In this document: positions 32,954-46,003 of the stretch, in pieces
Layout: every line of letters starts with the position of its first letter
Position numbering within the stretch: position 1 is the first letter of the stretch
Assembly: GCF_003555545.1 (NCBI RefSeq)
Contig: NZ_CP032157.1
Coordinates: forward strand, 2,360,546-2,424,545
DNA: 64,000 nt
Source: Paraflavitalea soli
GTDB lineage: Bacteria; Bacteroidota; Bacteroidia; Chitinophagales; Chitinophagaceae
Direction of reading: 5' to 3'
Translations under genes and position numbers: made by a program
The notes under the pieces: model-generated
What the model was told of the DNA's origin: nothing
What the model saw: only the letters and a program-made list of their open reading frames with translations
The model's database searches: none

Positions 32954-33020
32954 TAAAACTATTGCTATACTGCCAGCATGAGGGGAGCTGAATGTTTCAT
33001 AATAGGGTAATGAATGTTGC
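32954..33020 (-). promoter_or_regulatory. Operon A promoter with two 22-bp-spaced regulator half-sites (site A)
   Basis: On the minus strand GCAACATTCA (33011-33020) and GAAACATTCA (32989-32998) form a direct repeat with 22-bp period. Exactly 27 nt further lies TAGTTTTA (32954-32961), close to the TAnnTTTG box. The GH31 start follows 29 bp downstream. Sites B and C have the same layout. Confidence 0.75.
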
Positions 33021-33080
33021 AACGAACTGACTTTCACTAAAAAACACGAACCAGGCTGCAGGCTGCCGGTATAAGGGCAC

Positions 33081-34028
33081 TTATTTGAAAATATGCTGTG
33101 CAAAAAGATACAGGTTGTTGGCCCACTCGGTATCGTCATGCCCATTACCATCCACATGCCATACATGCGGCACCCCTTGTTCTTTGAGGTGTTGGTGCAC
33201 ACGCTGGCTCACACGGATCAGTCCATCTTTATTGCCACAGCCAAGCCACAGTACCTTGAGCTGATTCTTCGCCGCCGCCAGATCCGATAGCAGTCTGGTG
33301 TCAGAAAGCCCCCCGAATTCATGGGTATTCGGGGCCGAAGAAAATCCACCAACGTAAGCAAAAATACCAATGTGCGAAAGACCGATATTCAGAGATTGCC
33401 CACCGCCCATCGACAACCCGGCAAGTGCACGATGTTCACGGTCAGTGTAAACAGAATAGTGAGATTCGATATAAGGGATGATGTCGTTGAGCAGATCATT
33501 TTCGAAAAGCTGGCCATAACCTTTAAATCCGCCTTTTCGCTCCTCCTGTTCATCAGGTTTGGGATTCGACACCGTGATGTTTGTATTACAATTAGGAAAA
33601 ACCATAATTACAGGTCCAATTTTACCATCGGCCAGCAGGTTGTCGATCACATGATCAGCACGGACCCAGTAAGGCCATTGACCAGCCCCCGAGTTAAGAC
33701 CATGTAGTAAATAGATTACCGGGTACTTTCGATCGGGTGAATACCCGGGAGGCGTATAAACCAGCATCTCCCGGCGGGTAGAAACCGTTTTGGAATCATA
33801 CTGAACAGTAGCTATTGTACCATGAGCAAAATTGTCACGCTTGTCCCTGAACCCGGCAGGTGGATTGTCAAAGGCAGGCTTATCATCGGGTCCCAGCTCA
33901 ATGGGTCCCCCGAAGCCGTCCCGGCGCGCACTAGAGGTGTCGCCACGGGATACTGACGGTTTCTCCTGTGCATAACCCGAAAGAGCATCAGCAAAAAGCA
34001 ACAACAATACTATTAATGCCTTATTCAT
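33081..34028 (-). CDS. CE1-like (esterase D / feruloyl-esterase-type) secreted esterase
   Basis: 315 aa with signal peptide ([21 protein letters not shown]). The alpha/beta-hydrolase core matches the bacterial CE1/'XynZ esterase' type: [23 protein letters not shown], nucleophile elbow GLSMGG (Ser206), and His in [12 protein letters not shown]. Such enzymes remove acetyl, feruloyl or other acyl groups from plant cell wall glycans. As last gene of operon B, after the fucosidase gene (9-bp gap), it may remove acyl groups that block xyloglucan side chains. Acetyl versus feruloyl cannot be told from sequence. Confidence 0.82.
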
Positions 34029-34037
34029 AACATACTT

Positions 34038-45600: not shown

Positions 45601-45782
45601 GTTCGATCGGTATTTTTTACAGTAACGGTGGCCGCCGACACCGGCGCTGCCGTACGTTGACTGGTCACCCTGCCCGCCAGCTTATCGGTTTGGGCAAAAG
45701 CAGTCAGGTTTGCCAGGAATAGGAATACAGAAAAAATGCATAGCAGCAGGGTTCGCAAGCGAACCGTTTTGATTGATTTCAT
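42654..45782 (-). CDS. SusC/RagA-family TonB-dependent outer membrane transporter (pair 2)
   Basis: 1042 aa from ATG 45782, where a normal leader begins (MKSIKTVRLRTLLLCIFSVFLFLANLTAFAQ). The frame is open to a further ATG at 45905, which would add 41 residues; that stretch looks like a copied gene start rather than part of SusC. The carboxypeptidase-regulatory-like domain (LAGRVTSQRTAAPVSAATVTVKNTD), plug (LVTGANLQVKGEDIQKQNTTNAFQALQGQASGVQV) and barrel ending in TIMVGANIRF are complete. No STN domain. Confidence 0.93.
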   Translation of the reverse strand: MKSIKTVRLRTLLLCIFSVFLFLANLTAFAQTDKLAGRVTSQRTAAPVSAATVTVKNTDRTTMTDQDGKFTIKASAGEVLLISSIGFTTREVTVGTGDLNIQLQEAENQLEGVLVIGYGIQKKKLVTGANLQVKGEDIQKQNTTNAFQALQGQASGVQVTSSSGQPGDGFNVIIRGKGTIGNFGPLVVVDGVQGVNLNSINPADIESIDVLKDAASAAIYGSQAANGVILVTTRSGKQNQKAQITLDAYYGVQNVARKAQLLDAKGYATIMNEQAVNSGKIPYFTNEEIDKLPVNTNWMDQMFVKDVPTQNYVLGATGGNGGSTYSTSLGYTSQGGIVGGKNMSFYERYTFKINSEHNLYQNIIKLGEHLTFNNVNNHGIQTGGQYNNTLRAAFSTSPFLPMYDASGDFFRSDSLPWNPGKVGDPQWDNGTSNPYAAMYYGSNGRNKNQGLFGDAYLQVEPIKGLRFRTSLGLNYWSNQSRGFTPPYHLSVFSRVDTSTVYQSMGTGQTLQFDNTLTYDFKIASDHSFSVMAGSSALKTKGSGLSGNNWDLRVLDLQHAYLDVAQDRSAQSNHLSASGAPFESALMSYFGRLQYNFQEKYLFGASFRADASSNFAPGHRWGYFPSVSAGWIASRESFMQTINGLDFLKLRATWGQVGNQSIPGYQYLSLISFNQAGYSFGPVEGINVQGAWPSSLGNPGIKWETSEQLNIGFDATLMKNLNVTFDYYIKKTRDWLISVPVLATSGVETVTINGGDVKNTGVELALNYRNSIGKNFNYSIGANGSYNKNTIGNIPTQDHIIHGNTNVLFANALEFYRAQNGLPVGYFWGLKTAGVFQTEEEVNAYRGKSGNPVQPGAKPGDLRYVDLNGDGVIDNEDRTKIGDPNPDFIFGFNVSLDYKGFDFLVQASGVAGNQLVQSWRGPGGRGNYSAEILERWTGPGSSNRIPRVTEEGTNWAQFSDLYVYDGSYLRISTITLGYDFARLAKKSYLNKVRLYASVLNAFTFTKYNGMDPEVGHNEGFSSGVDVGYYPRPRTIMVGANIRF

Positions 45783-45936
45783 ATGTAAATGTTTATCGGG
45801 AATGATAGTTAAGCGCACAGGAGTTCCGCAAACAGGAGAGGTTGCCAATATGACATTATAGTGGGGAGACTTCAGAAAAACCAATAGTAGCAGTGGTAGT
45901 TTCATATAGCAGCCTTCAATCGTTAAATGAATGCTG

Positions 45937-46003
45937 TAAAACTATTACTGTACTGTTTGAAACAAGGGGGTTAAATGTTGCAGTTTAGGGATCAGATTGT
46001 TGC
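45937..46003 (-). promoter_or_regulatory. Operon C promoter with two 22-bp-spaced regulator half-sites (site C)
   Basis: Minus strand GCAACAATCT (45994-46003) and GCAACATTTA (45972-45981) are 22 bp apart; 27 nt further is TAGTTTTA (45937-45944). It lies between the hybrid sensor gene stop and susC2. The untranslated leader to 45782 would be about 150 nt. Confidence 0.75.

Follow-up and report, generated by a model that had tools for sequence, protein, structure and literature searches.

The 64,000-nucleotide window of the Paraflavitalea soli genome analysed here (the window, throughout) carries three operons of glycosidase, esterase and susC/susD genes together with the gene of a hybrid two-component sensor (HTCS), all on the minus strand. 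Features of the locus, apart from the control elements, are as follows.

13717–30051, minus strand: remainder of operon A (susC1, susD1, an SGBP-B xyloglucan-binding protein, GH5, a GH74-type xyloglucanase, GH97, GH39 and GH42)
30067–32925, minus strand: GH31 glycosidase gene, first gene of operon A and apparent donor of the promoter cassette
33081–39881, minus strand: operon B (GH3, a SASA-type acetylesterase, a GH29 fucosidase and an esterase)
40045–40066, minus strand: terminator-like hairpin of 9 pairs followed by TATCTTTTTA, between operon C and site B
40140–45782, minus strand: operon C (susC2, susD2 and a lipoprotein)
45783–45905, minus strand: leader from site C to the likely susC2 start (45782), with an in-frame ATG and codons resembling a decayed GH31 start
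46046–50158, minus strand: HTCS with Reg_prop propeller, Y_Y_Y, HisKA, HATPase_c, Response_reg and HTH_18 domains (Pfam)

Intergenic gaps in operon A are shorter than 40 nt, save one of 121 nt before GH97. The hairpin at 40045–40066 is consistent with separate transcription units for operons C and B; a terminator consensus scan of the region found 18 sites of this kind where shuffles averaged 14.4, no clear excess. The ATG at 45905 is probably not the true susC2 start, and by eye a normal-looking signal peptide begins at 45782. The two susC genes are 32% identical, which rules out a recent susC1–susC2 duplication. The GH31 gene product matches both the alpha-xylosidase and the alpha-glucosidase NCBIfam models, both below their cut-offs, and the operon C lipoprotein has no match in Pfam.

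Two proteins of operon A point to the substrate. The SGBP-B protein contains a xyloglucan-binding domain (PF18329) at 24071–25255. For the 1,068-amino-acid protein encoded at 19573–22779, no glycosidase model in Pfam matched; its best structure match is PDB 6p2l (1,268 bits), and 17 of its 18 known-structure matches span the same catalytic region, many of the chains being named xyloglucanase. Since a xyloglucan-binding domain and a GH74-type enzyme occur together, there is good reason to regard xyloglucan as the predicted substrate of the regulon. The same substrate logic, likened by gene content, is found in the Bacteroides ovatus xyloglucan utilization locus, where SusCD, SGBP-B, GH31, GH3 and an endo-xyloglucanase are encoded beside an HTCS. 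The GH74-type xyloglucanase also carries Ig, PA14 and type IX sorting domains.

A shared element before three operons

The first gene of each operon is preceded by a 67-bp element on the minus strand, and the coordinates and placement given in the original prediction proved correct for all three sites.

32954–33020, minus strand: site A, with half-sites at 33012–33020 and 32990–32998, upstream of the GH31 gene (ATG 32925)
33005–33007 and 32983–32985, minus strand: CCC boxes of site A
32954–32961, minus strand: −7 box of site A, TAGTTTTA, after a 28-nt gap
39911–39977, minus strand: site B, with half-sites at 39969–39977 and 39947–39955, upstream of the GH3 gene (ATG 39881)
39911–39918, minus strand: −7 box of site B, TACTTTTA
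45937–46003, minus strand: site C, with half-sites at 45995–46003 and 45973–45981, upstream of susC2 and directly after the sensor gene
45937–45944, minus strand: −7 box of site C, TAGTTTTA

Two GNAACAWTY half-sites with a 22-bp period had been described, and every site contains them: GNAACAWTY-N13-GNAACAWTY has exactly three matches in the window (32990–33020, 39947–39977 and 45973–46003, all minus strand) and none in 100 shuffles. The gap from the second half-site to TAsTTTTA, given originally as 27 nt, is in fact 28 nt (9 + 13 + 9 + 28 + 8 = 67), so the proposed genome-wide search with N27 would miss all three sites. Across the 8.44-Mb single-contig genome, a 68-nt pattern for the full element with the 28-nt gap, at up to three mismatches, matched three times, always in the window, and the same pattern read backwards gave no match. 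The window and genome pattern searches found no element before fucP or the sensor gene, as had been noted, nor before an AraC-family gene at 54778–55662. The half-sites alone are less selective, with four exact genome matches that include A, B and C, and 70 matches at up to two mismatches against 59 backwards, mostly noise.

Neither the fourth exact half-site match (G000:C1:6828732) nor a one-mismatch match at 7079069 was accepted as a regulon member; both consist of repeats about 11 bp apart and have no −7 box at 28 nt. The former (L004, 1501–1560) is, by eye, a set of GTAACATT-like repeats, spaced by about 11 bp, in an interval between porin-like and TonB-receptor-like genes. We take this array to resemble a Pho-box-type operator, and the match at 7079069 is presumably Pho-box-like too.

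Aligning 39 sites showed a repeated 22-bp unit of TTGnAACATTT with CCC further on, both boxes recurring 22 bp later. C occupies unit positions 14–16 in 37, 32 and 24 of the 39 sites and positions 36–38, the second CCC box, in 26, 39 and 38. Because each unit holds a CCC box as well, the half-sites originally described are only part of each unit. The suggestion that the spacing suits tandem AraC-type helix-turn-helix (HTH) domains gains from this anatomy, a two-part 22-bp unit being what one such domain would be expected to read; judged from the family, one unit fits one AraC-type domain with its two helix-turn-helix motifs. The 22-bp period, in A–C and in relatives, agrees with tandem direct repeats of about 21 bp on the same face of the DNA.

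Linkage of the element to the hybrid sensor

The protein encoded at 46046–50158 joins a propeller sensor, HisKA, HATPase, receiver and AraC-type HTH in one chain, the architecture of an HTCS. The closest solved structure to its DNA-binding domain is an HTCS chain (12aw), and its closest named relative among the matches listed, from Terrimonas pollutisoli, is 77% identical.

We used this protein to scan named genomes, where it had 324 relatives, and kept the best 80 of the 324 as 78 loci. Spacing was assessed in the 32 of these 78 loci with a sensor identity of at least 57%, fetched by the sensor protein alone; because loci L218–L266 were collected through, or at, matches to patterns with the 28-nt gap built in, the spacing figures are those of the 32 sensor-fetched loci only. 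For the spacing and leader analyses the −7 box was written TANNTTTR and the second half-site GNAWCAWTY, and the leader set comprised distinct sites. The two half-sites were present at up to one mismatch in 28 of the 32 loci. TANNTTTR followed at 28 nt in 39 of 42 core matches, at 27 nt in two (both in L042) and was absent in one, against a background elsewhere of about 0.0008 per position. The four loci without such a core are L040 and L060, with changed sites, L051, with a two-mismatch core only, and L052, which has three mismatches beside the sensor and whose exact site, at base 2, falls in the first 20 bases, a stretch that the scan skipped in every locus.

The sensor-adjacent site mostly starts 25–130 bp after the sensor gene (exceptions include L039, L041, L052 and L067). 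In relatives the element precedes GH31, susC, GH3, GH74-like and GH5 genes, and orthologous loci retain its position ahead of sensor-linked susC or glycosidase operons.

Co-occurrence of element and sensor was scored with the second half-site loosened to GNAWCAWTY and the −7 box to TANYTTTA. Among 79 genomes of a related genus (that of G006), the element at up to one mismatch was found in 28 of the 33 genomes with a sensor of at least 60% identity and in none of the 46 without (Fisher p 1e-16, which is overstated because the genomes share ancestry); these 28 genomes hold 62 elements, and the backwards control gave 0. Sensor presence was judged from seven candidates scored per genome here and four in the wider family, so a sensor could be missed. 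Of the 46 element-free genomes, 36 carry a sister sensor at 44–53% identity. Allowing two mismatches gave a match in all 33 sensor genomes, with G164, G165, G211, G221 and G223 gained, and in 10 of the 46 others, with four backwards matches in the 79; in five of those ten (G152, G158, G183, G188 and G208) the match lies 62–65 bp from a sister sensor gene.

The wider family, with 147 genomes, gave exact elements in five, all among the six with a sensor of at least 65% identity; the sixth, G116, has an element at one mismatch. One-mismatch matches elsewhere in the family lie near sister sensors in G006 and G071, are GTAAC repeats about 11 bp apart in G008, and in G015 form an element before a GH31-like start in a genome whose sensor, with four candidates scored, is at most 48% identical. 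At two mismatches the 147-genome scan was mostly noise (45 matches against 31 backwards) and was set aside.

The proposed three-operon xyloglucan regulon with a common operator-promoter is supported by this co-occurrence, the SGBP-B domain and the GH74-type enzyme, and the neighbouring hybrid sensor, already named as the candidate binder, is the best candidate, with the element following it across species. The link between element and sensor is, on comparative grounds, strongly supported, and sites A–C are very probably activator-dependent promoters of one xyloglucan regulon, with the hybrid sensor as the predicted activator.

The AraC-family regulator encoded at 54778–55662, which has an AraC HTH (Pfam), is a neighbour of the sensor gene at a distance of 4.6 kb, and the half-site spacing would suit any AraC-type protein. 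That this regulator rather than the sensor binds the three sites is nonetheless improbable. A relative of at least 60% identity accompanies the sensor in 4 of 33 loci (L039, L046, L052 and L056), with a 32% one in L063, in flanks of at most 10 kb that would miss more distant copies. In most of those 33 loci the element stands shortly after the sensor gene. Sister sensors also have variants of the same operator alongside, and the AraC gene itself, like fucP, has no element upstream.

Sites A, B and C resemble one another well beyond the operator. Their likeness begins some 15 nt upstream of the element and reaches into the first codons, over 204 columns at 78% mean identity, and copies of the same cassette are present in relatives, as duplication of the upstream region would produce. 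That such duplication is the sole cause, with the repeats being no binding site, seems very unlikely: most of the intervening bases drift between species but the two boxes and the 28-nt gap are kept, the element tracks the sensor across genomes, and unrelated sequences at other sensor loci have the same geometry. Common descent of the cassette does explain part of the likeness, and the three sites are therefore not three independent observations; what they share would partly reflect descent of a copied promoter, plus shared binding.

Bacteroidota promoters have a −7 consensus of TAnnTTTG and a −33 box of TTTG. TAsTTTTA in A–C fits the former with its last base changed; in a 48-site alignment, 90% of sites have A there and 8% have G. 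A CTTG stands 18 nt before the −7 box in site C, at a place where aligned sites show 58% T and 67% G, and this TG preference makes a weak −33 box possible. A bare housekeeping −33/−7 promoter with no activator site is the least credible reading despite these resemblances, as A, B and C have by eye no full TTTG at the usual −33 distance and the upstream boxes, with three genome matches for the full pattern, are far more specific than a promoter element.

The mechanism we infer for the sensor as activator would begin with xyloglucan oligosaccharides, the presumed ligand, causing the sensor to phosphorylate its own receiver, which would free its AraC-type DNA-binding domain. Two such domains would bind head-to-tail, one per 22-bp unit, each reading the AACATT box and, roughly one helical turn beyond it, the CCC box. 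The end of the second unit coincides with the position expected of a −33 box, and the bound pair may recruit RNA polymerase to TAsTTTTA at the fixed 28-nt distance. AraC binds araI1–araI2 in a comparable manner, head-to-tail on two direct repeats about two turns apart next to the promoter, but it is a cytoplasmic sugar sensor acting at a sigma-70 promoter with a 21-bp period.

Tandem operators for such sensors are already known in Bacteroides, so the kind of operator is known and the xyloglucan regulon with its copying history is new. HTCS regulons of Bacteroides thetaiotaomicron, as described in the accessible text of Ravcheev et al. 2013 (PMC3878776), have direct-repeat operators with a mean of 21 bp between repeats and, as here, combine AraC-type hybrid sensors with susC/susD and glycosidase operons beside the sensor gene. 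The present system differs from what that text covers in belonging to the Chitinophagaceae and in its 22-bp period, fixed 28-nt gap and promoter cassettes with gene remains; the word xyloglucan, the substrate of the regulon here, has 0 occurrences in the article's main text. For two response regulators of HTCS type, BT4124 and BT4663, the accessible part of a 2024 mBio study (PMC11253607) reports binding to susCD promoter DNA by EMSA, a receiver–HTH contact that holds back binding until phosphorylation, and S/CHIP-DK as the conserved motif of that contact in HTCS proteins; the domain type is the same as here, the loci and genomes are different, and operator anatomy does not feature in that part. 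PMC12125979, in its accessible part, concerns another regulator. A search by title, with subscription journals thinly covered, found no report of an HTCS operator in Chitinophagaceae, of cassette copying or of translated leaders in such loci, which argues only weakly for their absence. For a soil family that degrades plant biomass, the analysis offers a testable operator, a promoter geometry and a likely regulator of xyloglucan use; the parts that most merit attention are the promoter copies that carry the beginning of their donor gene and the start codons that have been retained.

Operator geometry in sister sensors

This genome also encodes a 50%-identical sister sensor with a 22-bp tandem operator of its own, in which the CCC boxes and the 28-nt gap recur and the half-sites TTAACATTT and TAAACATCT take the place of GNAACATTY. 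This operator (L189, around 12935, minus strand, in G000:C1:4706000–4724500) reads TTAACATTTGAATACCC, then 22 bp on TAAACATCTGCATACCC, then TACTTTTA at a 28-nt gap. A position weight matrix from the ortholog sites (one site of the 48-site alignment, L051 7285, with three mismatches, was left out of the later matrix) failed to detect it in this genome.

We also ran a motif-free self-similarity scan beside 63 candidate −7 boxes in the neighbourhoods of the genome's other HTCSs. Offsets 21 and 22 yielded five cases with at least 12 of 20 matching bases, and the 18 other offsets together yielded one; among the five was the operator of the 50%-identical sister sensor, found here without a motif. 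Around HTCSs at 27–42% identity (101 boxes, best of nine placements), offset 21 gave nine such cases and each of 16 other offsets, 22 included, at most three. Tandem-unit geometry seems general for such sensors, in agreement with the Bacteroides mean of 21 bp (PMC3878776), and the 22-bp period is particular to the group studied here. Two 21/22-bp units, about 28 nt and a −7 box would serve as a rule for finding targets of other such sensors.

Four other HTCS neighbourhoods of this genome (L199, L204, L214 and L215) have unrelated 21-/22-bp tandem repeats directly before −7 boxes (12–14 of 20) and are candidate operators; L197 has a weaker repeat (10 of 20). By eye, the G028 sister locus (L149) has at least three units in a row. 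A rule for DNA-contact specificity was tried and dropped: 36 of 37 orthologs have R at residue 1298 and 24 of 25 sisters have K, but the matching base is not uniform among sister operators, and we therefore claim no rule.

Copies of the promoter with donor-gene remains

A common gene order in relatives is sensor, element, GH31, and behind some extra elements lie short ORFs that represent decayed GH31 starts. Extra copies with such starts behind them suggest that the promoter spread as a cassette. We built a GH31-start profile from 12 intact starts and a variant without the first 60 coding nucleotides; the intact starts in L049, L053 and L067 were not counted as fossils. The variant matched the susC1 leaders of L062 (E 1e-20), L048 (1e-10), L058 and L046 (both about 3e-7) and L051 (6e-4), and no shuffled or reversed control fell below E 2.9. 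With the full profile, L061, before GH5, gave E 1e-9 against 0.025 for the best control.

In mobile promoters, or promoter propagation, promoter copies move before new genes; here the copies seem confined to a single regulon, and remnants of the donor GH31 gene accompany them. The signs of such movement, copies before unrelated genes with donor remains, are strong in several relatives and weak in the window. The leader of site C matches the full profile over its first 73 nt at nhmmer E 0.0023 (best shuffled control 0.025), weak by itself, and site B gives a non-significant E 1. Several relatives show the cassette history clearly; for C it is likely and for B unproven. A GH31 fossil in frame with susC2 at site C would explain why 45905 reads as the susC2 start. 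In the order of events that we infer, promoter, leader and GH31 start would have been duplicated as one cassette, which would account for the likeness of A, B and C beyond the operator. The gene remnants that follow extra copies illustrate a way for new operons to come under one sensor.

Among 90 distinct sites, 55 leader ORFs stop within 110 codons, 32 enter a longer ORF and three have no ATG in the stretch searched. ATGAAA is kept in 46 of the 55 stopped leaders, against 0.9 expected by shuffling; this orphan start lies 18–35 nt after the −7 box, and in L252 and L253 it is kept with an ORF of three codons. Since the leaders were aligned on ATG, preferably ATGA, only bases 5–6 are a fair test; conservation is about 1.5 bits there and 0.3–0.7 at bases 7–9. 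Leader ORFs have dN/dS values of 0.26–0.77 (12 pairs), between neutrality and the intact GH31 starts (0.07 and 0.14 in two indel-free pairs, four of six pairs having been dropped as misaligned).

Tentatively, the regulon may grow by copying of a cassette of operator, −7 box, leader and GH31 start, in which the orphan ATGAAA is kept by selection, even as the peptide encoded after it decays, and a ribosome loads on the leader. Many copies are close kin, the 28-nt pattern itself led to many of them, and fossils of recent origin would look the same; for these reasons we hold selection on the start codon to be a minority possibility. If true, it would add a translated-leader layer of control to polysaccharide loci.

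Several individual loci bear on copying. In Chitinophaga ginsengisoli (L062), elements at 14135 and 14438 lie 303 bp apart before susC1, and a GH31 start in clear decay follows the first of them; the pair seems to capture a deletion or insertion that took place between two copies of the cassette. A similar GH31 remnant stands, by eye, before a GH74-like gene in L180. In Niastella vici (L065, 14154), the element is followed by about 100 codons that resemble, by eye, a GH2 start, then a stop and GH3, in what look like the remains of another donor gene, GH2. Two elements of G006 (L179 and L181), on different contigs, differ at 1 of 67 bases; one stands before an intact GH31-like gene of 951 amino acids and the other beside the sensor before a GH31 fossil, a pair that looks like a recent copy or move.
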